From positions 1 through 27,163 of the IMG/VR virus record IMGVR_UViG_3300037234_000416: DNA of 27,163 bases; one strand, 5' to 3'. Each line of letters starts with the position of its first letter. Positions within the stretch are counted from its first letter, which is position 1. The translations under genes were made by a program, and so were the position numbers. The notes beneath the pieces were generated by a model. The model had not been told where the DNA came from, made no database searches, and worked only from the letters and a program-made list of their open reading frames with translations. Below are positions 1 to 12,968 of this stretch, in pieces. This DNA comes from a virus.

Positions 1-135
1 TTTGTATGGTGCCAATTTGCTTGGTGCCAATTTGCGTGGTGCCGATTTGTATGGTGCCAATTTGTATGGTGCCAATTTGCGTGGTGCCGATTTGTATGGT
101 GCCAATTTGTATGGTGCCGATTTGCGTGGTGCCAA
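1..135 (+). repeat. Nine tandem 15-bp units encoding pentapeptide repeats
   Basis: Exactly nine copies of a 15-bp unit of the form TTTGyryGGTGCCrA fill positions 1-135. They differ only at the bases that set residue 1 of each unit (Tyr, Leu or Arg) and the Asn/Asp/Lys position. The order Tyr-Tyr/Leu-Arg repeats three times, giving a 45-bp higher-order period. DNA-level identity is higher than protein function alone would need, which suggests recent expansion by slippage or recombination. Confidence 0.9.
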
Positions 136-379
136 ATACACCGATGAAATCACCCTTGAAAGGACACCTTTATTTATCCAGGGTTTAAACTGGGACGTAA
201 TTATTCTTGATGAACACATGAAAATAGGCTGTGAGTTACACAGTTTAAAAGAGTGGGAATCTTACGATAACAAACGTATTTTAGAAATGGACGGTAAAAC
301 CGCTCTAAAGTTTTGGAAAGAAAATAAAGAAGGTTTACTAGCAATTGCTCACGGGGATAAGCGAGGGTTGAAATCATGA
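2..379 (+). CDS. Pentapeptide-repeat protein, 5' end cut by the window edge
   Basis: The frame is open to the left edge, so this is the C-terminal part of a longer protein. The visible N-terminal 45 residues are nine consecutive pentapeptide units of the A(N/D)L-x-G type, which normally stack into a right-handed quadrilateral beta helix. A non-repetitive tail of about 80 residues follows, with conserved-looking aromatic and charged blocks ([23 protein letters not shown]). Pentapeptide proteins in phages and bacteria have varied roles, including DNA mimicry and structural roles, and nothing here selects one. The TTG at position 2 is only an in-frame codon and is unlikely to be the start. The gene ends where a 12-codon ORF begins (ATGA overlap). 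Family assignment is firm; function is unknown. Confidence 0.8.
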
Positions 380-414
380 ACTTCGCAGTTAACAACACGG
401 ACTTGAAGCTATGA
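376..414 (+). CDS. Possible 12-codon coupling ORF
   Basis: An ATG at 376 overlaps the stop of the pentapeptide gene (ATGA). The 12-residue frame ([12 protein letters not shown]) stops with a TGA that overlaps the ATG of the next gene at 411. A GAGGG block lies about nine bases upstream. The double ATGA overlap would let ribosomes pass from gene to gene by reinitiation. There is no other evidence that the peptide itself matters, and it could be chance. Confidence 0.25.
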
Positions 415-707
415 GATTCGACCATGCACCTATGATTATTTATTCCGAGTCAAAGGCAGTAGAACAAATGAAGACAGGAGTATTCACTTGCAGACGGTGC
501 GGTAGCTTAATTAAATGGGACAGTCGCACTGCAACATATATAAAGAGCGTCGAACTCAACCCCGAACAAACGCAACTGTGGGAAAACTGCTACTTCGACA
601 ATCCACCGGGCGACTTGTGGCTGATTAACTTATTTGCCAATGAGCACTATTACTTGAAAAACGGTCAGATTGATAACAGTAGACTTGTAACTGATTTTAA
701 TTGTTAA
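411..707 (+). CDS. Hypothetical 98-aa protein with one CxxC knuckle
   Basis: I do not recognise this protein. It carries a single CRRC motif near residues 27-30 followed by GSLIKWD, which looks like the first half of a zinc ribbon. Further isolated cysteines at about residue 60 and at the C-terminus could complete a metal site. The ATG at 411 has only a weak purine-rich site (TTGAAG) upstream, so it may depend on coupling to the preceding ORF. ATG 432 is an in-frame alternative. No signal peptide or membrane segment is visible. Confidence 0.6.
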   Translation: MRFDHAPMIIYSESKAVEQMKTGVFTCRRCGSLIKWDSRTATYIKSVELNPEQTQLWENCYFDNPPGDLWLINLFANEHYYLKNGQIDNSRLVTDFNC

Positions 708-719
708 GGGAGAGTGACA

Positions 720-1097
720 ATGAGTGATTCAGTATTGATATCGAAAGATGAGTGGTTTAGAGCAGCGGGATTAGTTCCCGACAACTACTACGGAGCGTTT
801 AATGCTCTGTGGAGTGAGTACGAACAGCAGACCAAAATGCTGTTGAGAATGCAGGAATCGTTAATCGAACGACCCATTGTACTTAAAACAATGGAAGATG
901 CTGATGTGATAGAACAGCGTCAACAACTCAACACCGCAATCGAGTTACTTGAAGCATGCTCAGAAGACCTGTTCATATCAGGTGATGATGCTGAACTTGA
1001 AACACGTGTTGATGAGTTCATTAAATCGGTGAAACACTCAGGGGCGCATCCCAGAGAACGAAGTGAACGAACTTTATTTATTTGTTATGTGTTTTAA
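720..1097 (+). CDS. Hypothetical 125-aa acidic helical protein
   Basis: The sequence is acidic and mostly helical, with no family that I recognise. I start it at ATG 720 because AAGGGAGAG at 706-713 is well spaced for it. The in-frame GTG at 714 lies inside the ribosome-binding block and is a decoy. The last 16 residues (from about HPRERSER) differ in character from the rest and run through the TTTATTTGTTATGT end of an attC-like boundary. The original C-terminus may therefore have been replaced when cassette DNA joined here. Function unknown. Confidence 0.6.
   Translation: MSDSVLISKDEWFRAAGLVPDNYYGAFNALWSEYEQQTKMLLRMQESLIERPIVLKTMEDADVIEQRQQLNTAIELLEACSEDLFISGDDAELETRVDEFIKSVKHSGAHPRERSERTLFICYVF
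1072..1090 (+). repeat. Right half of an attC-like end, copy 1
   Basis: This 19-base segment ends in TTTATTTGTTATGT and matches 1342-1360 at 18 of 19 positions. Both copies are followed after a few bases by TTAACTG, a purine-rich ribosome-binding site and an ATG. Unlike the second copy, this one has no matching ACATAAC arm on its left, as expected at the outer boundary where a cassette joins foreign DNA. Confidence 0.45.
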
Positions 1098-1113
1098 CTG
1101 AAAGGATTTAATG

Positions 1114-1275
1114 ATGCCGAAATATAGAATTATTTACAATCGAGTACCTAGTGATCCTTGTATTTGGCAATTACAGCAAAGGGTTTATTTTTTCTTTTGG
1201 GAAGAAATGTATAACTTTAGCAGCGCAACATCAGCAGCTAATGAAATATTATTATTAATGAAAGACGACACATAA
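1114..1275 (+). CDS. Small 53-aa protein, lone gene of an attC-flanked unit
   Basis: This short protein has a basic N-terminus (PKYRIIYNR), then WQLQQRVYFFFWEE and an Ala/Ser-rich helix ending in EILLLMK. The W-x-x-Q-x-R plus FFW pattern resembles small proteins of unknown function that I associate with phages and mobile DNA. AAAGGA at 1101-1106 favours ATG 1114 over ATG 1111. The stop codon lies inside ACATAAC, the left arm of the attC-like element. One promoterless ORF ending in attC is the usual layout of an integron gene cassette. Function unknown. Confidence 0.55.
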   Translation: MPKYRIIYNRVPSDPCIWQLQQRVYFFFWEEMYNFSSATSAANEILLLMKDDT

Positions 1276-1360
1276 CGACTTTTAATAAGCGAGCGCCACA
1301 ACAAGGCTCGCAGGAAACAAGCGGAACTCTACAGCGTCCGCCTTAATTTATTTGTTATGT
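1270..1360 (+). other. Integron attC-like recombination element
   Basis: The 91-bp element is bounded by a perfect 7-bp inverted repeat, ACATAAC (1270-1276) and GTTATGT (1354-1360), matching the outer core sites of attC. Inside these, TAAGCG and CGCCTTA form a second imperfect complementary pair with one unpaired base, like attC L boxes. The centre holds two further hairpins, GCGAGC/GCTCGC (1289-1294/1306-1311) and GCGGA/TCCGC (1321-1325/1337-1341). Known attC sites are imperfect palindromes recognised as folded single strands by integron integrases. The core GTTATGT deviates slightly from the classical GTTRRRY, so the assignment is probable rather than certain. Confidence 0.5.
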
Positions 1361-1383
1361 TGAAGTTAACTGGAGAGTTAAAA

Positions 1384-1557
1384 ATGGAAACGATTTTCGA
1401 TAATTTAAGAAACGAAGCTCTTACTAGGCTGATCAAGTTAGAGCCAAAAAATGCAAGACAGGATATGTGCTTGGAAAATGAAGCTTTAGAACTGGCTGGG
1501 AAAATAACTGTAGCCTTTTTTGATGAGCTATTAAAAAGCAAGAAATTAGAAGCATAA
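1384..1557 (+). CDS. Small 57-aa helical protein, second cassette gene
   Basis: This is an amphipathic all-helical small protein (ends FFDELLKSKKLEA) with no family I can name. ATG 1384 is chosen because TGGAGAG at 1370-1376 is correctly placed. An ATG at 1357 lies inside the GTTATG core of the attC-like element and is an unlikely start. The gene begins 24 bases after the element and its stop sits in GCATAAC, again mirroring cassette architecture. Role unknown. Confidence 0.5.
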   Translation: METIFDNLRNEALTRLIKLEPKNARQDMCLENEALELAGKITVAFFDELLKSKKLEA

Positions 1558-1567
1558 CATAAGAGTA

Positions 1568-1602
1568 GGCGGCCATGGGCGCAATGTATTACGCCCCGCG
1601 CC
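1568..1602 (+). other. GC-rich hairpin after the second cassette gene
   Basis: GGGCG (1577-1581) pairs with CGCCC (1592-1596) around a 10-base loop. An outer GGCG (1568-1571) pairs with CGCC (1599-1602). It lies just after GCATAAC (1552-1558) but no GTTATG partner follows, so it could be the left part of a decayed attC. The T run after it (CCTTTTAAA) is too short for a convincing terminator. Confidence 0.4.
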
Positions 1603-1629
1603 GTATATCCTTTTAAAAATAGGATTGTG

Positions 1630-1806
1630 ATGACTGATAAACATTTACTATTTAAAGCAGGGTTGAATCAGGGGATGTTAGCTGAGAAACTGGGTACTAA
1701 AGCACCCTATGTTTCCAATTTCCTCACCGGTGAAGGTCATCTACCCCGCTGTGATTGGCAATTAATACATGAATATTTTCTTGAATTGAGGTGTAAGGAT
1801 GAATAA
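1630..1806 (+). CDS. Small helix-turn-helix DNA-binding protein (Cro/XRE-like)
   Basis: The 58-residue protein is essentially one helix-turn-helix. LNQGMLAEKLGTKAPYVSNF gives the two helices, with Ala and Gly at the usual turn positions, and FLTGEGHLPRCDW follows as in Cro/C1 proteins. This fold binds operator DNA as a dimer and usually represses transcription. GTG 1627 directly precedes ATG 1630, and AGGA at 1621-1624 serves either. The 3' end overlaps the next gene by eight bases. Which operator it binds is not visible. It is a candidate regulator for the palindromes near 6980 or 12978. Confidence 0.65.
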   Translation: MTDKHLLFKAGLNQGMLAEKLGTKAPYVSNFLTGEGHLPRCDWQLIHEYFLELRCKDE

Positions 1807-1993
1807 GCAAGGTAGCTTCACAATAAAGTTCCAAGATGTTCCATTGGGTTCATGGAATCTAAACGGTAACTGGTTTCATAACTCGTTGTTAATGATGAGT
1901 GAATCTGAACAACGTGAGCATAATGTTAAAGGTGGTCATTTTGACAAGATGAAATGTTCACCGGGTATTGTATCATTGAAGGCAGTACCGTGA
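1799..1993 (+). CDS. Hypothetical 64-aa protein
   Basis: I do not recognise this protein. It is rich in Trp, Asn and Met in the middle (GSWNLNGNWFHNS), with a charged stretch SESEQREHN. GAGG at 1787-1791 lies seven bases before the ATG. It overlaps the HTH gene by eight bases at its start and shares GTGA with the next gene at its end, so it sits inside a translationally coupled run. No membrane or metal motif is convincing. Confidence 0.5.
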   Translation: MNKQGSFTIKFQDVPLGSWNLNGNWFHNSLLMMSESEQREHNVKGGHFDKMKCSPGIVSLKAVP

Positions 1994-3228: not shown

Positions 3229-5837
3229 CAATTCACCACCTGCATTGTTAATTCACCGCGTACTTCAGCAAGTTGACGCTCATATTCTTGGTACAATGCG
3301 TTGCTATCCATCGAATTATATTTTAAATCGCTACGTAACACCCACAGCATCACCCTTGTACCAAGGTGATATGTTTTAACCTGGGTATATCGACCGATTT
3401 CTTTTATCACCATTCCTGTTTTTGTCGGTGTGAAATATTTACTATCAACATACATGTCATTCGGTGCAAATATTCCACCGCTTCTTAATGTGTCTGACAT
3501 ATCACTTGCAGTAACCAGATCACACTTGAACACACCGTGTTGTTTTTGTATGAATGTTTCAATTGTTTGTTGCATCGGTGACTTAGATGCTTCTTTAATA
3601 TCACGCAAGAAGTCCGTCATCGGCGGTGCTTCAGCAGGATTGAAGTCAGACAAGTCAACTTCATACATCAGGTGATAAGCGACGGCTTTCCAACCGCCTT
3701 GTTTCATCCAGTCCCATCTGTCGTTCCAATAATCCAACCACTCAGGTTTCATATTGTCATCAGCATCACGTATGTTTAAGTCAGACCACAAGCCGAAAAT
3801 ACGACGTGATGGACCATTCAATCGAATAGGCATCATGGAATTTGTTGTCATTGATGTGCTGAGAATATTACGTACATCAATAGCTTTAATACCTTTTTGA
3901 TTCACACGCAATGTGTCGGGTGGTGCAGCAGCAAGCGGTTTCAATTTGTTACTGACCGCCATTGCTTCACGACGGTCACCGAGTTCTGCTTCATTAATGT
4001 GAAGATATTTAGTTGATAAAACATAATCATTAAACCCGGTTAAAAGTTCTTCACCACTGATGACGGTATAGTTCTCACCCATTGCTTTAGTGAGTGGATA
4101 CAATAAATAATCTTTACCGGCACCTTCACCACTGCCTAGCATTAACATGTGATTGATTTTCACATCAGGGTGACGAAGTGTATGCGCTAACCATTGTTTA
4201 ATATGTTTAAGATGTTCACCCCACCCCATTACTTCAAAATGTTGTTCCCATCGAACAATGTCACCCTTAGCACCATAGTCTTGAGTCACCTCAGTCCAGG
4301 TGTTTGCATAAAGAGTACCGTTCTCATTAAAGATACGCGGATGTTTCGGTGCGTAGTCAAGACGGTCAACTTTCTTCACGCGACCATCTTGCAGTGCAAT
4401 CTTACGGGCTTCAGCATCTTCATGTGAGAAACTGTTTTGAAAAGCATCAGTGGTGAAAAAGATACGTGATTTCCAGTCATAGAATTGATTCAACTCTTTA
4501 ACGTACACCACATCATCATAGAACTCAGCACTGCCTGATTTATCGGTGTACCACTGTTGACGTAGATCTTTTAATATTTCTTTGAACTCACCCTTACCCC
4601 ATCCCATTGCATCACACACTTCATTGTGCCACTGCATTTTATCTAACTTAGGTAAATCATCAGTGTATTTCAGCACGTTGGTTGCATGTTCACGTGCTTC
4701 AGGAGTGCGTGGGTTCACCAGTCTCAGCTTATCCATCAACATTTGAATAGCGTCGATGGGTTGCACTGTTGGTACCGGTTCGAGAAAACTTACCTGTGCT
4801 GCACTCGGTACTGTCGTCGGTGCCGGGGACATAAAGCTGACTTGTTCAACTGCGACGACGGGTGCCAAGAAGCTCGGTTCTGCGACCGCTGCAAACTCTC
4901 GTAATATTTGCCAGTTTTTAAGAGTTCCAGAGAATCCGGCTGACAGGCCATCAATGAATCGAATAAGGTCCCGTCCTGTACGGTGTTGGCAAGCACCATG
5001 GTGGCATTTAAACCCAATACTACCATCGGCGTTCGTGAACACTGCCGAACCACTGTCATCAGCTCCTGTATGTTCGTTGACCCATGGGCAGGTAATATCA
5101 AAACGTCCATCTGAACGCACCTCTTTAACATGTATAATTTCAGGGATATTGATTAACGGGTGATCGGAAACCGCAGCTGCACCATCAATCCGTGATTCAC
5201 GTCGTACTGCATCAAGGTCAACGTGGAAAGGTTCAGCGAGCTGTTCAATAGTAACCCGGCTGAACGGCTCCCATAGTGTCAACTGACACTTATAAGGTAG
5301 ACCATTGACCAGTTTAGATGCTTTATTATTAGAACCTTCAGGGAGGCGCACATAACGTGTGACCCCCTTCATACCTGGATCTTTTCCATCAGGGGCAAGC
5401 CCGTTTGCAACAAGACCATCGAGTAAATTTTCTACTCTGGCACGATCAGTGCATGGTGTGTTGAGAATGTAACCCCATTGTTCTGAACCTTGTGATGTCT
5501 CAAGTACCCATGATGGACGGGGGAGTTTTGACACCTCATCCATCGACAACTTTTCTTTCACATCATCAAGCACAATCACCGGTGTATGTCTGAAGAGTGC
5601 CTTACGACGACGCGCCTGATTTTCATCATCACAGTAGAAGTTACTGATGGTGAAGTACTGATTGCTACCCGGTTGCATGTGGTACCGGCTGAAGTAGTCA
5701 CCCATCCATGCAATTAGATGTTTATCTTTTGGAATGTTCCCAGGGTCATAGGGGAAGTCAGTTACATGCACCCATGCTGCGTCATCACCAAATAACGCAG
5801 TCAGAAATTCGCTGTTTGTCACCATCATTGAACTCAT
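3228..5837 (-). CDS. Bifunctional primase / SF3-type replicative helicase
   Basis: The N-terminal part (about 50-180) looks like a RepB-type archaeo-eukaryotic primase domain: VIVLDDV with the acidic pair near 91-92, TSQGSEQWGYIL near 114-125, and TRYVRLPEGSNNK near 160-172. A zinc-binding segment follows, with C250, H256, C278, C283 and H285 (KCHHGACQHRTGRDL). A Pro/Ala-rich linker (about 315-362) with three SFxxP repeats leads to a DUF5906/SF3-like ATPase. This has Walker A GSGEGAGKD (568-576) and a Walker B-like YLHINEAEL (611-619). It would prime and unwind phage DNA at the fork. The start overlaps the PAPS-like gene by four bases. M4 or M5 are possible alternative starts. Family-level call is strong; exact enzymology is inferred. 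Confidence 0.85.
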   Translation of the reverse strand: MSSMMVTNSEFLTALFGDDAAWVHVTDFPYDPGNIPKDKHLIAWMGDYFSRYHMQPGSNQYFTISNFYCDDENQARRRKALFRHTPVIVLDDVKEKLSMDEVSKLPRPSWVLETSQGSEQWGYILNTPCTDRARVENLLDGLVANGLAPDGKDPGMKGVTRYVRLPEGSNNKASKLVNGLPYKCQLTLWEPFSRVTIEQLAEPFHVDLDAVRRESRIDGAAAVSDHPLINIPEIIHVKEVRSDGRFDITCPWVNEHTGADDSGSAVFTNADGSIGFKCHHGACQHRTGRDLIRFIDGLSAGFSGTLKNWQILREFAAVAEPSFLAPVVAVEQVSFMSPAPTTVPSAAQVSFLEPVPTVQPIDAIQMLMDKLRLVNPRTPEAREHATNVLKYTDDLPKLDKMQWHNEVCDAMGWGKGEFKEILKDLRQQWYTDKSGSAEFYDDVVYVKELNQFYDWKSRIFFTTDAFQNSFSHEDAEARKIALQDGRVKKVDRLDYAPKHPRIFNENGTLYANTWTEVTQDYGAKGDIVRWEQHFEVMGWGEHLKHIKQWLAHTLRHPDVKINHMLMLGSGEGAGKDYLLYPLTKAMGENYTVISGEELLTGFNDYVLSTKYLHINEAELGDRREAMAVSNKLKPLAAAPPDTLRVNQKGIKAIDVRNILSTSMTTNSMMPIRLNGPSRRIFGLWSDLNIRDADDNMKPEWLDYWNDRWDWMKQGGWKAVAYHLMYEVDLSDFNPAEAPPMTDFLRDIKEASKSPMQQTIETFIQKQHGVFKCDLVTASDMSDTLRSGGIFAPNDMYVDSKYFTPTKTGMVIKEIGRYTQVKTYHLGTRVMLWVLRSDLKYNSMDSNALYQEYERQLAEVRGELTMQVVN

Positions 5838-6586
5838 ATTTTACAAATCTCACAACTTCCTTGGTCTGTGTCGTACATTTCATACTTTTGACCTATTTCA
5901 ACTTCAAGTTGCTTTATTACCTTTAATCGTTCTTGTCCTACTTTTGTAGCGAACATTTTTTCCTGTACTTTTTTACCTGCCAATAAACACGGGTAACACC
6001 CTACTCTGTCGTTTGTGCCTTCATCGTAAAGCGGGTTCTTAGCCATGCCGTGTGTTTTTAGGTATGTAAAGATTTTATCCTCTGACCATTCAACAACAGG
6101 CAGCCTGACTTGTATTGTTGCTCTTAACTTCTTGTTATAACGACTAGGAAATAAATCCTCCATATCAAATAAGTCATCAGACGTTAACCCTGCGTATTTT
6201 CTTGCTCTTTGACCGCTTTCTTGAGTGCGCATACCGAACCAGAATTCATACTGAGTTTCGCCGTCAAATAAGTTATCCTTATACCAATCACGTAGTGCAT
6301 ACTGCTTTAAGTACATAGTGCAAAAACGACCTCGACCGAAGGGGAACTTACCAACATCTTTAATTAGATCAACTAGATTTTTACCTCGTTTACCGCCGCT
6401 GGTGGAATGAATCTCTTTACCTATAAACTTTTGCATATATTGGATATGCTCGTAAGTTAAAGGGTGATCCCAGCCCGTGTCATTGAATACAGGTATGACG
6501 TTATCAATCCCAACCTTATCTATAGCAAGCAGCATACACACTTGACTGTCTTTACCGCCTGATACTGGCACTAATATTTTTGTCAT
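5834..6586 (-). CDS. PP-loop PAPS-reductase-like protein with five cysteines
   Basis: SGGKDS at residues 9-14 is the PP-loop that binds the nucleotide phosphate in PAPS reductases, ATP sulfurylase subunit CysD and DndC-type proteins. Downstream are RGRFCTMYLKQ (Cys 89), GCYPC (197-200) and a C-terminal CEIC (245-248), a layout that could hold a 4Fe-4S cluster. The spacing is not that of classical CysH, which relies on a C-terminal ECGLH. The start is ATG 6586: GAGGTGACA precedes it, and the GTG at 6598 is part of that ribosome-binding site. It overlaps the primase gene by four bases. It may supply activated sulfur for DNA or RNA modification, or assist sulfur metabolism. Substrate unknown. 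Confidence 0.75.
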   Translation of the reverse strand: MTKILVPVSGGKDSQVCMLLAIDKVGIDNVIPVFNDTGWDHPLTYEHIQYMQKFIGKEIHSTSGGKRGKNLVDLIKDVGKFPFGRGRFCTMYLKQYALRDWYKDNLFDGETQYEFWFGMRTQESGQRARKYAGLTSDDLFDMEDLFPSRYNKKLRATIQVRLPVVEWSEDKIFTYLKTHGMAKNPLYDEGTNDRVGCYPCLLAGKKVQEKMFATKVGQERLKVIKQLEVEIGQKYEMYDTDQGSCEICKI

Positions 6587-6605
6587 TGCTATTGTCACCT
6601 CAGTT

Positions 6606-7949: not shown

Positions 7950-9325
7950 GCCACGGTCACGCACGCTTAGGGCCTTCTAACAAACGATGGCCTAAGTGTG
8001 CGGGTTCGGTTCGTGAAGAAGAACGTTATCCTGATATAGCCGGTGAAGCGGCCATTGATGGCACTGGTTCACATTTGTTGCTTGAATTGTGCATGAAGAA
8101 CAACGTGCGTGCAGACCAATACGATCAACAAATTATCGGTGTAAACCATGAAGATAATATGAATGGTTGGATGGTTGACCCTGCGAGAATTGGACGTGTA
8201 CAAATGGCACTGGATTACATCGCACGTCGTGTTGCTGAACTTAAAGAAATGTTCCCAGGCTGTAATGTGCTTGTTGAATCTGAATCGAAGTCTGATCCAG
8301 GCGGTGCGTTTGGTCGTGAAGATTGGTGGGGTACGTGTGACATCACCATTACTGCACGTCATGCAATGGACCCGAGTGAAATTTATTTCATCGAAACGGC
8401 TGATTATAAAGATGGTCGTGGTTATGTTTCTGAAAAGAATAACACGCAGAACGATAGTTATCTTTTCGGTAAATTGCGACCTCATGTGTGCAGTGGTCCT
8501 GAGTTAGTTCGACCTTTTGTTAATAAAAACATCGGTGTACGCATGACTATCATACAACCGAAAACGAACCCTGTTGTACGTTATGTGTGTTCAACACGAT
8601 CTGAAGACAATGTGAGTGTTGCAACTGTTATTGAAACAGCTGATAAATTGTCGGATGCAGCATATGCAACTGATAAAGCAGACGCACCTTGTACACCAGG
8701 TGAACATTGTTTGTGGTGTAAAGCGAACCCTAAACGTGGCGGTCATTGTGACGCTGAATCTAATCAATCATTACAAGTGGTGGAGAATATGAGCAACACT
8801 GAAATGGTAACAGGTGACCAAACCCTGTTTGAAGTATTCAGACAGGTGATGGCAGATCCAAAGTCACTGACTGAAGAACAGCTGTCTGATCTCGCAGATG
8901 CTGAACCGGGTATACAAGCGGTGTTTGATAAAGTGAAAACTGAAATCAAAGATCGTATTGATCAAGGTATCACGGTACCAGGCTATGCAATGGTGCCGGG
9001 TAAAGGTTCAAATGTGTGGAATGAAGACGAAGAAACAATCATTAAAAAGTTGAAAGCGCGAAGGCTTAAACTTGCTGATATTTTCCCGCCGAAACTCATT
9101 TCACCGGCTCAAGTTTTGAAGTTAGATAAACTGTCTGACGATCAGAAAAAACGTATCGAGAATGATCTGATTACTTTCAAAGGTGGTAAGTTAGCACTGA
9201 AAAAAGTAGCACGTGATCATGTCGATGAGAAACTTGTTACACAAGAAGACTCAGCAAAGTTAATGTTTGCTGATGTTCCTACACAACCAGTTGCAGAAGA
9301 AGCAGCTGAACCTTCATTCTTTTAA
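7946..9325 (+). CDS. DUF2800 family Cas4/RecB-like nuclease
   Basis: The opening HARLGPSNKRWPKCAGS, then a GTGSH motif (H43), GTCDITI (D132) and IETADYKDG (D153, K155) follow the order of a PD-(D/E)XK nuclease of the DUF2800 family. C18 plus C249, C255, C258 and C268 match the one-plus-three cysteine layout that holds a 4Fe-4S cluster in Cas4- and AddB-type nucleases. It would resect DNA ends in phage recombination or replication. The C-terminal region after the cluster (about 280-459) is a charged helical extension, and the protein ends in EPSFF. It is coupled to the gene upstream (ATGA) and is followed by the ssDNA-binding partner, a pairing typical of phage genomes. Confidence 0.75.
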   Translation: MSHGHARLGPSNKRWPKCAGSVREEERYPDIAGEAAIDGTGSHLLLELCMKNNVRADQYDQQIIGVNHEDNMNGWMVDPARIGRVQMALDYIARRVAELKEMFPGCNVLVESESKSDPGGAFGREDWWGTCDITITARHAMDPSEIYFIETADYKDGRGYVSEKNNTQNDSYLFGKLRPHVCSGPELVRPFVNKNIGVRMTIIQPKTNPVVRYVCSTRSEDNVSVATVIETADKLSDAAYATDKADAPCTPGEHCLWCKANPKRGGHCDAESNQSLQVVENMSNTEMVTGDQTLFEVFRQVMADPKSLTEEQLSDLADAEPGIQAVFDKVKTEIKDRIDQGITVPGYAMVPGKGSNVWNEDEETIIKKLKARRLKLADIFPPKLISPAQVLKLDKLSDDQKKRIENDLITFKGGKLALKKVARDHVDEKLVTQEDSAKLMFADVPTQPVAEEAAEPSFF

Positions 9326-9336
9326 GAGGTGACATT

Positions 9337-10137
9337 ATGTTAGTAAAAGGTATTTTATCATTCCCCACTTTGTTTACACCACAGATAGCAAAGGGTGCAA
9401 CAGAGGCAAAGTATAGTTGTGCTGTATTGTTACCACCTAATGATCCACAGGTAGCTATAATTCAAGCTGAAGTTGAAGCGGCTAAAGTAAACGGTTGTCC
9501 TAGTGGTTACAACGGTGCTGATGAATGTTTTGGATTATATGAACATAAAATTCCAGCCGATAAAAATTATTATGACCCACGGTTCAACGGCTGGTATCTT
9601 TTCACTTGTACTGCAAAAGAAGTTGATCGACCTTCTGTTGTGGATATGGCTTTCACACCGATTATTGACCCCGGTGCTGTATATTCAGGCATGGTGGGTT
9701 ACGTAAACGCAGGTATTAGTTACTATCCTAAAGGTAAAGCAGGTATCGGTGGCTGGTTAAACGGTGTCATGGTTACAGCTGAAGAACCACCAATGGGTCG
9801 TCTTGATAACAAACCATCGGTTGAACAGATGTTTGCTGGTGTGCAAGGCGGCGCACAGGTACAAGCTGCACCACAAATGGCTGCACCAATGGCACCCCCG
9901 GTTGTAGCAGGTCAACCACCAGTGACTAATCCACCGCATATGCAAGCACCTGCTCCAATGACACCTGTTCGAGCTGCACCTGCTCCAATGACACCTGCTC
10001 CTCCTGCTCCTGCGTCTATTGCATTACAAATGACAGCAGCTGCAAACGGTGCAACATACGAAAGTATGATTGCAGCAGGTTGGACTGATGAAACGTTACT
10101 TGCTCAAGGTATGGCAATTAAACCTTCATTTGCTTAA
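9337..10137 (+). CDS. DUF2815 family ssDNA-binding protein
   Basis: The N-terminal 170 residues match the DUF2815 pattern: LVKGILSFPTLFTP at the start, KYSCAVLLPPNDPQ, and PIIDPGAVYSGMVGYVNAG. This fold binds single-stranded DNA in phage replication or recombination. A Pro/Ala/Met-rich disordered tail (about 175-225, with APAPMTP twice) leads to a short C-terminal helical segment ending in KPSFA. The tail may contact partners, as SSB tails do. GAGGTGACA at 9326-9334 is an excellent ribosome-binding site. It directly follows the DUF2800 nuclease and is followed by a terminator. Confidence 0.75.
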   Translation: MLVKGILSFPTLFTPQIAKGATEAKYSCAVLLPPNDPQVAIIQAEVEAAKVNGCPSGYNGADECFGLYEHKIPADKNYYDPRFNGWYLFTCTAKEVDRPSVVDMAFTPIIDPGAVYSGMVGYVNAGISYYPKGKAGIGGWLNGVMVTAEEPPMGRLDNKPSVEQMFAGVQGGAQVQAAPQMAAPMAPPVVAGQPPVTNPPHMQAPAPMTPVRAAPAPMTPAPPAPASIALQMTAAANGATYESMIAAGWTDETLLAQGMAIKPSFA

Positions 10138-10152
10138 ACGATTGTAGTACTT

Positions 10153-10198
10153 ACCTTCCTCTCTTTATTCCCCAACCCCTGGAGAGGAGGGTCTTTTT
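10153..10198 (+). terminator. Rho-independent terminator after the ssDNA-binding protein gene
   Basis: An 11-bp stem with one G-T wobble (10153-10163 with 10182-10192) closes an 18-base loop and is followed by CTTTTT. The long loop is slightly unusual, but stem and T tract are good. Its T tract is also the outer part of the next inverted repeat. Confidence 0.7.
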
Positions 10199-10279
10199 AA
10201 ATGTAGTGAACTTGGTGCTGGAATTGCATGTATGGAGATGAGTTCGAATCTGTCCGCCAGCTTCACTGCATTTAAAAAG
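10193..10279 (+). other. Long imperfect hairpin, possible structured RNA
   Basis: The 18-base arms at 10193-10210 and 10262-10279 pair at every position with one G-U. Directly inside, GCTGG (10217-10221) pairs with CCAGC (10257-10261), leaving a six-base bulge CTTGGT on one side. The 35-base apical region includes GTTCGAATC, a sequence typical of tRNA T loops. It sits between a terminator and the ribosome-binding site at 10292, so it may be a leader RNA, a processed small RNA or a tRNA relic. No full cloverleaf can be drawn. Confidence 0.5.
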
Positions 10280-10303
10280 ATTAACAATAACGAGGTGACA
10301 CTT

Positions 10304-10522
10304 ATGGCTATTGAATTCAATGCACAAAATGCTATTGCAAACTGTGCACTCGATATGCACAACAAATTTCTTGATACGTTAAAAGAACCGCGGTCAGTTC
10401 ATCCGATTGATTTGAATGTCAGCCGTGATGAACTGTTGAAAACCACATACATTAGACTTCTTGAAACTGCGAAAGAGTTAATCGATGCAGAAATCGAAGC
10501 CGCACGCATGGTGACACTATGA
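10304..10522 (+). CDS. Hypothetical 72-aa helical protein
   Basis: ATG 10304 is fixed by GAGGTGACA at 10292-10300. An upstream in-frame ATG at 10232 lies in the hairpin and lacks a ribosome-binding site. The product is mostly helical, with a charged middle (DLNVSRDELLKTTYIRLLETAKELIDAE). It overlaps the next gene by ATGA. I recognise no family. Confidence 0.6.
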   Translation: MAIEFNAQNAIANCALDMHNKFLDTLKEPRSVHPIDLNVSRDELLKTTYIRLLETAKELIDAEIEAARMVTL

Positions 10523-10710
10523 CTGAATACTCCTTCAACAATGATTCAAAAAGCATTGATTTTGTGATAAACGAACTTTCACATAACCCTGCACTTTCAG
10601 ACTGGGAAGATAACTTCATTAAAGACATCAAAGAATACTGTATCAATAAACACGGTTTCTTATCTGATAAACAGTTGCAAAAACTTAGTGATTTATGGGA
10701 GAAATATTAG
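10519..10710 (+). CDS. Hypothetical 63-aa acidic protein
   Basis: The C-terminal half, with WEDNFIKDIKEYC and then GFLSDKQLQKLSDLWEKY, resembles a small motif seen in many phage proteins (W-x-x-x-F-I...LS-x-K-Q-x-x-x-L-x-x-I/L-W-E-K) whose function is unknown to me. It starts in ATGA overlap with the previous gene, and the next tiny ORF starts directly after its stop. Confidence 0.6.
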   Translation: MTEYSFNNDSKSIDFVINELSHNPALSDWEDNFIKDIKEYCINKHGFLSDKQLQKLSDLWEKY

Positions 10711-10806
10711 ATGGAGGGCGTTATTTTATTTTTCATAATTATGTATGTGTTTAATAAATATATTACTAAGTGGATTATTGAAATAATAAAGGAATCTAAA
10801 AAATGA
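10711..10806 (+). CDS. 31-aa membrane peptide
   Basis: The ORF begins at the base after the preceding TAG and ends in ATGA overlap with the polymerase gene, so it sits tightly in a coupled operon. Residues 4-14 (VILFFIIMYVF) plus a second amphipathic segment suggest a single membrane helix followed by a basic tail. Short length keeps confidence moderate. Confidence 0.45.
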   Translation: MEGVILFFIIMYVFNKYITKWIIEIIKESKK

Positions 10807-12968
10807 GTGGGTTAACTTGTCAAGAATGTTTCAATGCAGAAGCAACAATGTACTTTGAAACTGTAGAGGTATGTGATGATTGCTATCACAATAAAAGTAA
10901 TTTAATACCTTATTCAAACTTTGTCACACCCCCCGATTTCCTCTACGGTGTAACCCCCGGTGACATCATCTATGATATTGAAACATTCCCTAATGCTTTC
11001 ACCATAGGTTTAATGCACACCGTCACAAAACGTAAGTGGTACTTTGAAATAAGCATCAGACGTAATGACATACAACAGTTCTGCCAGTTCATTGACATCA
11101 TGGGTGAGCAACAGTGTCGCATGGTGGGGTATAACAACATCGGGTTCGATTACCCTGTTATCCATTTCATTCACCGTAACGCACAGGCTGGTATCAGCGT
11201 CACTGAAATCTATGACAAAGCAATGAGTATTATCGGTGCTCATGGACCTGCTAGATTCGCTCACATGGTCTGGGAATCAGAGTGGTTAGTACAACAGCTT
11301 GACCTGTACAAGATTCACCACTTCGATAATATGGCTAAAGCCACCAGTCTCAAAGTGTTAGAGTTCAACATGAGAATGGACAGCATTGAAGACTTACCCT
11401 TCCCCGTAGGTACTGTACTCACCGTTGAACAGATACAAGTGCTTGCTGATTATATGTGGCATGACATTGATGCAACGATGATGTTCTATGACAGAACTGC
11501 ACCGCAGATTAAATTGCGTGAAGACTTATCAATCAAGTTCAACACAAATATGACGAATATGAACAATGGTAAGATAGGGGAAACAGCACTGGTACAAGCG
11601 TTAGAATCAAAAGGTGTAATGTGCTATGAATATCAGGGGAACAAGAAAGTTAAGCGTCAAACTAAACGTGAGTCAATTGATTTAGCGCAAGTAATATTCC
11701 CCTATGTACAATTTGAAAACTTGGCATTCCAACAAATTAAAGTTTATCTGGAATCAAAAGTCATCACCGAAACGAAAGGTGTGTTTAAAGGACTCACCGC
11801 AGACATTGACGGTCTTAGTTATCATTTCGGTACCGGGGGATTACATGCCTCAGTCGAATCTCAGGTTGTGCACACTACTGATACCCATCAACTTGTGGAC
11901 GTAGATGTTAAAAGTTTTTATCCGAAACTAGCTATTAAAAATAAAATATTCCCCGCGCATTTGAGTGAAGTGTTTTGCGATACGCTTGATAACATATACC
12001 ATACACGTACAACGTATGATAAAGGTACATCAGAGAATGAAGCTTATAAAGAAGCATTAAATGTACCCTACGGTAATTCAAACAATGAGTTTAGTGTATT
12101 CTTCGATTCATTCTACACCATGAGCATCACCATCAACGGTCAGTTGCTGTTGTGTATGTTGGTTGAACAACTATTGAAGACACCGGGGTTACGCATGATA
12201 CAGGCGAACACAGACGGTGTGACGTACCTTTGTCCTTATGAACATTTGGAACACACCCGTACAATTTGCCGATGGTGGGAACAGCTAACGAACCTTGAAC
12301 TTGAAGAAGCGTTGTACAGTCGTATGTTTATTCGTGATGTGAACAGTTACATTGCTGAGAAAACTGATGGTAAATTGAAACGTATAGGAGCATATGCACA
12401 TGTCACTGCTGAAGAGAATCCAGGCACTAGGGAATTACCGTATCACAAAGATTGGTCGGCACGAGTGGTTGCTCTTGCTGCTGAAGCGGCTCTTGTCCAC
12501 GGCACTGACATTAGGGAGTTTATTACAAATCATGCTGATGAGTTTGATTTTTTCCTTCGTACTAAAGTGCCAAGAAGCAGCACCCTCGAATGGGGTGGTC
12601 AAAAAGTATCTAACATCGTTCGCTATTATATTAGCACAGAAGGTAAGCCACTTGAAAAAGTGATGCCACCGAAAGGTCAAGCTGGTGAATATAAACGTGC
12701 TAACAAGTTGACAGACTCATACTTCAATGAGGTCATGACAGAGATAGGTTACGGTGTCTGGGATGAACGTATTCACACCAAGAATAAATCAACCTATGGT
12801 GAACGTCGCAGCGGTATCAACACCGGGTATAATGTGATGTTGTGTAACAATTTAGATGATGTACTGGTACAACCTGACGGTGGTAGTCCTATGTTTAACA
12901 TCAACCATGAATGGTATATCGCTCAAGCAGAGAAACTTGTGAAACCATTGTTGCAAGGCTCAATGTAG
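10803..12968 (+). CDS. Family-B-like DNA polymerase with 3'-5' exonuclease and N-terminal zinc ribbon
   Basis: Exonuclease motifs are YDIET (57-61), GYNNIGFDY (109-117) and YMWHD (217-221). Polymerase motif A is DVDVKSFYP (366-374), close to the DxxSxYPS of family B. Motif B is probably K416...NVPYG (420-424). Motif C is NTDG (469-472) instead of the usual DTDS. The N-terminus carries four cysteines (C6, C9, C24, C27) forming a zinc ribbon not needed for the polymerase core. At 721 residues it is compact. It would replicate the phage genome with the primase-helicase encoded on the other strand. The weak ribosome-binding site (AAAGGAATC) and ATGA overlap suggest coupling. Family B is favoured over A because no family A motifs are present. 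Confidence 0.8.
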   Translation: MSGLTCQECFNAEATMYFETVEVCDDCYHNKSNLIPYSNFVTPPDFLYGVTPGDIIYDIETFPNAFTIGLMHTVTKRKWYFEISIRRNDIQQFCQFIDIMGEQQCRMVGYNNIGFDYPVIHFIHRNAQAGISVTEIYDKAMSIIGAHGPARFAHMVWESEWLVQQLDLYKIHHFDNMAKATSLKVLEFNMRMDSIEDLPFPVGTVLTVEQIQVLADYMWHDIDATMMFYDRTAPQIKLREDLSIKFNTNMTNMNNGKIGETALVQALESKGVMCYEYQGNKKVKRQTKRESIDLAQVIFPYVQFENLAFQQIKVYLESKVITETKGVFKGLTADIDGLSYHFGTGGLHASVESQVVHTTDTHQLVDVDVKSFYPKLAIKNKIFPAHLSEVFCDTLDNIYHTRTTYDKGTSENEAYKEALNVPYGNSNNEFSVFFDSFYTMSITINGQLLLCMLVEQLLKTPGLRMIQANTDGVTYLCPYEHLEHTRTICRWWEQLTNLELEEALYSRMFIRDVNSYIAEKTDGKLKRIGAYAHVTAEENPGTRELPYHKDWSARVVALAAEAALVHGTDIREFITNHADEFDFFLRTKVPRSSTLEWGGQKVSNIVRYYISTEGKPLEKVMPPKGQAGEYKRANKLTDSYFNEVMTEIGYGVWDERIHTKNKSTYGERRSGINTGYNVMLCNNLDDVLVQPDGGSPMFNINHEWYIAQAEKLVKPLLQGSM

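Follow-up and report, generated by a model that had tools for sequence, protein, structure and literature searches.

The DNA analysed here (hereafter the window) is an IMG/VR phage fragment of 27,163 bp, corresponding to positions 1 to 27,163 of record IMGVR_UViG_3300037234_000416. It encodes tail proteins, a helicase, a DNA polymerase, an ssDNA-annealing protein, an exonuclease and a primase, and proteins from Vibrio siphophages were found to be about 70% identical to the DNA polymerase. A second contig, L012 (11,285 bp), shares 99.7% identity with window positions 1–1942 and carries the phage genome leftwards beyond the window, into portal and terminase genes. The left end of the window (1–135; about 9248–9480 in L012) lies in a pentapeptide-repeat ORF whose DNA repeats in tandem almost perfectly; L012 seems to have more copies, the window contig starting within the repeat. 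At 5834–6598 on the minus strand, a gene encoding a phosphoadenosine phosphosulfate reductase domain adjoins the primase gene.

The region studied comprises two small plus-strand ORFs on either side of a palindromic element. ORF1 (1114–1275) encodes 53 amino acids from the ATG at 1114, or 54 from position 1111, and ends in ACATAAC, where the palindrome begins that closes at GTTATGT (1360). ORF2 (1384–1557; 57 amino acids) is preceded by a ribosome-binding site and starts 23 nt past the palindrome; its stop codon lies inside a GCATAAC box (1551–1557). Family searches gave no match for either ORF. To the left of ORF1, positions 1072–1090 repeat the right end of the palindrome (1342–1360) at 18 of 19 bases, with ATTTATTTGTTATGT occurring exactly at 1076–1090 and 1346–1360, and both copies are followed by TTAACTG and a ribosome-binding site. 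All of these coordinates and repeats had been given in an initial annotation of the sequence and were confirmed by reading it; no further copies of the repeat were present in the window when up to two mismatches were allowed.

The palindrome at 1270–1360 is a true integron attC site inside a phage, 91 nt long and canonical on the minus strand. The R'' box, located from the sequence and the model position, occupies 1354–1360 (ACATAAC on the minus strand, GTTATGT on the plus strand), and the R' box occupies 1270–1276 (minus GTTATGT, plus ACATAAC) and holds the TAA stop codon of ORF1 (1273–1275), with a predicted cleavage point at 1275/1276 of the plus strand. The two boxes are complementary at 7 of 7 positions and each deviates once from the RYYYAAC and GTTRRRY consensus. 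The site was scored with a home-made two-arm attC model trained on 61 attCs taken from class 1 plasmids, marine chromosomal arrays and an integron borne by a Vibrio phage, the window contributing none; left-out loci score about 22–58 bits under this model. The minus strand from 1360 to 1270 scored 27.3 bits, a value reached by none of 500 dinucleotide shuffles (best score per window: mean 11.2, sd 3.1, max 25.1), and no comparable match was found on the plus strand of the window. A plus-strand reading of the attC was abandoned, since bacterial arrays had the opposite spacer signature. The initial annotation had proposed an integron-like element within a phage and had named the lack of an attC model hit as evidence against it; the hit obtained here upholds that proposal. 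The folding check suggested alongside was less decisive, with energy z-scores of −2.5 or −1.9 for the plus strand and about −1.0 for the minus strand, but folding energy separates attCs from shuffles poorly and is by itself weak evidence. The extra-helical base in the L'' arm was marginal for this site (6 vs 5).

The left repeat extends beyond a recombination box. When read on the minus strand from 1090 to 1069, it ranks second among all R''-L'' arms of the window at 18.5 bits, with the next at 10.4, and it closely resembles the R''-L'' arm of a complete attC in another phage contig, L042. As the entire R''-L'' arm is present, the repeat at 1069–1090 is not a bare recombination point but the remaining half of another attC, whose partner arm is missing; an ORF at 714–1097 runs through it. 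The window thus holds one complete attC and one half.

The orientation of the genes relative to the attC changes how the locus is divided into units. Bacterial attCs have AACAA at their start and CGTT at their end, and the genes begin just past R'. The window site carries this bacterial-type spacer signature on the minus strand, while ORF1 and ORF2 are both on the plus strand. A standard cassette has its gene upstream of and parallel to the attC; the window instead shows the three features by which we propose to recognise an inverted cassette, namely an attC antiparallel to the gene, a gene start 10–30 nt past R'' and a stop codon in the R' box. With an attC canonical on the minus strand and cleavage at R', the predicted mobile unit is the attC together with ORF2 (about 1276–1556), running on the plus strand through the attC body, the leader and ORF2 to GCATAA|C, and not ORF1 plus attC, which the initial annotation had taken as the repeating unit. 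Its suggestion of a second cassette at ORF2 was right in that ORF2 belongs to a cassette, but no attC lies 3' of ORF2, only the GCATAAC box. ORF1 is best read as the unit before that of ORF2, and half of its own attC is lost. In the stretch 1551–1620, the GCATAAC box is followed by an unrelated G+C-rich hairpin, possibly a decayed attC or an array edge.

The inverted arrangement was also found in other phages. A very similar attC occurs in contig L042, followed by the same leader (GTTATGTGTTTTAACTGA) and then a gene, inverted relative to the attC as in the window. The likeness is limited to leader and attC, the ORFs being different, and the DNA polymerase of the window had no match in the L042 phage. 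Contig G047 is colinear with the phage of the window over the stretch running from the capsid, portal and terminase genes to the primase; it carries seven inverted attCs, likewise between terminase and primase, with the array running in the opposite direction. No attC was found in seven further related viral contigs, some of them partial, or in two Vibrio phages. The terminase-to-primase region looks like an accessory hot spot. A comparison with an empty site gave little, as L012, the closest relative, is identical at the feature and carries the same attC, and more distant relatives were too diverged.

IMG/VR was scanned with sequence patterns blind to gene direction, and polarity was assigned from a ribosome-binding-site-bearing ORF starting at most 50 nt away or from a stop codon at the box, using mechanical ORF calls. 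Under this strict test, 105 viral sites were antiparallel, 4 parallel and 31 tied, compared to 75 parallel and 3 antiparallel sites at control loci of bacterial, plasmid or integron-bearing origin. The identical pattern applied to 369 sampled gammaproteobacterial genomes, plus one named-genome match, gave 31 parallel and 2 antiparallel sites. The viral-bacterial contrast corresponds to a Fisher p of about 1e-24 with sites treated as independent, which they are not; after dereplication of the viral contigs, 43 clusters were antiparallel, 5 parallel and 37 undecided. A second viral pattern, with GTTAGG boxes, yielded 20 antiparallel and 11 parallel sites, 7 of the latter from the single contig L168. 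That contig, classed as viral and derived from an isolate genome, holds a mostly gene-parallel array of eight attCs (8749–11970), which is probably a bacterial integron in a viral-classed contig. Contig L100/L116 has attCs in both orientations. Matches in L038, L041, L045 and L047 were discarded as chance pattern matches to one repeated non-attC sequence.

The antiparallel relation of gene and attC is therefore general among the sampled phage sites, which were drawn from contigs matching narrow patterns and among which ties were common. The layout with a stop codon in the R' box was seen at 88 viral sites, and the phage identity of several contigs was supported by terminase, portal or capsid genes. 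The extra-helical base of an attC sets the choice of the bottom strand; among sites where it could be called, it fell in the L'' arm at 75 of 77 bacterial and 86 of 87 inverted viral ones. This equal polarity shows the viral sites to be structurally ordinary attCs around which only the genes are reversed. With both neutral patterns, attC sites were found in dozens of viral contigs, many of them in arrays of 2–9, and integron parts in phages had already been published in 2023 by Qi et al. (PMC9892861); the initial description of integron cassettes in phage DNA as rare was thus too strong. The gene inversion goes unmentioned in that article, and no report of inverted or reverse cassettes was found in the literature searched, a collection that excluded bioRxiv preprints and most subscription papers.

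Integron units travel as circles closed inside the box; agreement between the boxes on either side of a gene is consequently expected to exceed that between the two boxes within a single attC. This was the case for the phage arrays: across 114 consecutive viral pairs, the mean box match was 3.55 of 4 across the gene, 2.65 within the attC and 2.34 for random pairs, the across-gene value being reached by none of 2000 shuffles. A perfect match was seen for 85 of 114 pairs flanking a gene as compared to 29 of 114 within one attC. The 68 bacterial pairs behaved alike (3.85 across the gene, 2.53 within the attC, 2.31 random). In the window, the boxes around ORF1 and in the attC all read ATGT, so the test says nothing for this locus. 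Unit edges like those predicted at 1276–1556 do occur between two related phages, L095 and L138, which are 97–99% identical in their shared blocks and differ in array blocks and cassette content, a pair that offers a natural experiment in cassette turnover. Two of the block edges are clean at AA|C of R', a third resumes at AAC and a fourth is ambiguous; these edges are what IntI cleavage at R' of an inverted unit would predict. One difference without relation to attC is an indel, present as an extra 493-bp block in L138 (6496–6989). A second pair, L078/L083, was rejected as a case of cassette exchange, their difference falling at a place other than an attC. The cargo of the phage cassettes includes a DNA methyltransferase and a homing-type endonuclease.

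Integron integrases were searched for with profile TIGR02249 at a cut-off of 265 bits. No match was obtained in the window or in its sibling L012, both sequence fragments, and 38 of the 40 attC carriers searched, many of which are fragments, likewise had no match above the cut-off. A complete integron (intI, attI and array) is accordingly not present in the window, the integrase being absent from the sequence of the fragment. The two exceptions are phage contigs in which attCs with inverted genes adjoin the integrase gene: L188 (contig G026; 3160–4134, 418 bits), which additionally encodes a phage integrase, terminase, portal and protease, and L190 (contig G034; 15686–16705, 310 bits), which also encodes terminase and portal. 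G026 shows the usual integron layout of integrase and three attCs, with the genes inverted. In the other carriers, the integrase is likely to be a host IntI supplied in trans.

Taken together, we consider it probable that 1069–1557 is the remnant of a phage-borne array of inverted cassettes whose units are exchangeable by an integron integrase. A mobile unit would consist of the attC and then, in the direction of transcription, a leader bearing a ribosome-binding site and a single small gene whose stop codon falls in the next R' box. The integrase would be supplied by the host or, in some cases, by the phages themselves; IntI would fold the bottom strand of the attC, here the coding strand, and units would be swapped at G|TT of R', the loaded genes being expressed from phage promoters. 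That IntI carries out this recombination and acts on the window attC is inferred.

A different explanation is that the attCs are conserved linkers, between copies of which homologous recombination by the phage swaps genes with no involvement of an integron integrase. These phages do have recombination genes of their own (in the window, those for an exonuclease and an ssDNA-annealing protein), most carriers have no integrase, and one L095/L138 junction shows identity across the entire attC. However, the box match across genes far exceeds that across attCs, the signature of circularised units cut in the box, and the attC bodies of one array are often too unlike to pair. The two clean L095/L138 edges inside R', with a third compatible, and the integron integrases of two carriers also speak against linkers, and we regard this explanation as unlikely.

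More doubtful still is the origin put forward in the initial annotation, in which a host integrase placed a normal bacterial cassette (ORF1 followed by attC) at a secondary site in the phage. The gene start just past GTTATGT and the stop codon in ACATAAC do resemble a standard cassette, and temperate phages are known to take up bacterial integron pieces (PMC9892861), those examined here being gene-parallel at most sites. In a captured ordinary cassette, gene and attC would remain parallel; the antiparallel genes in the window and in almost all other sampled phages do not fit such an event, and the inversion speaks against the phage having captured a cassette of the usual host type. Furthermore, the left repeat is a full R''-L'' arm and so represents half an attC rather than a simple secondary site. 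No match was found when the cassette DNA was searched against plasmid and phage sequences, and an exact-style attC pattern search of bacterial genomes was also empty, revealing no similar bacterial cassette and, consequently, no host integron. It is very improbable that the palindrome is a merely attC-like transcript element of an early operon (a terminator, RNase site or translational control element): its position between small co-directional genes would suit one and attCs are thought to be weak terminators (PMC9892861), but boxes and spacers match attC, an Rfam search of the palindrome matched no family, and the phage set as a whole shows the bacterial extra-base polarity and a cassette-type box pattern.

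When compared to known systems, the closest are the phage CALINs, clusters of attC lacking an integrase, with examples in the Pseudoalteromonas phage H101/PH101 and in MW202573 (PMC9892861). Like the window, these have attCs and small genes in phage DNA with the integrase absent; they are defined by a threshold of two sites, under which the window falls with its one and a half. According to the same article, IntI1 recombined 5 of 6 attCs tested from three virulent phages including PH101, the bottom strand more than the top. By our attC model both H101 (the PH101 of PMC9892861) and MW202573 have antiparallel genes. The sedentary chromosomal integrons of marine gammaproteobacteria (Vibrio, Shewanella, Colwellia, Photobacterium and Marinobacter) share with the phage arrays the attC arms, the extra base in L'', the one-gene units, the stop codon in the R box and the across-gene box matching, but have genes parallel to attC whereas those of the phages are antiparallel. 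Class 1 mobile integron cassettes, used in training the model, have the same attC architecture and differ in their parallel genes, Pc-driven expression and resistance cargo. Integron pieces of temperate phages (Va_90-11-286_p16 and Shewanella phage M16-3) are likewise integron DNA in a phage record; unlike the window, they are mostly gene-parallel and hence of the bacterial type.

The wider reading, to which we give about an even chance, is that phages keep a separate inverted cassette pool that is shuffled by host or phage integrases and isolated from bacterial integrons by the inversion, and whose active strand may sit on the lagging-strand template, making the arrays unusually fluid. The inverted polarity would keep the two pools apart, since any gene crossing from one to the other would land antisense to the local promoter. 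The inversion itself could stem from a founding inverted pool, in which foreign units would be antisense and kept apart, or from selection. An attC bottom strand on the lagging-strand template is reported to fold and recombine more, a configuration that bacterial superintegrons are said mostly to avoid (review PMC8946536), and inversion of a Vibrio array increases excision (PMC11023631). Co-directional replication of the phage genes, combined with the inversion, might place the active strand on that template.

For annotation, presuming that gene and attC are co-directional would misplace the borders of phage cassettes. If the proposed reading is true, the polarity rule would explain the limited mixing of phage and bacterial pools, the reshuffling of small accessory genes in some phages would gain a testable account, and phage-encoded integron integrases would be available for study. 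Integron recombination would then not be just a bacterial device occasionally acquired by phages; phages would run a cassette trade of their own.
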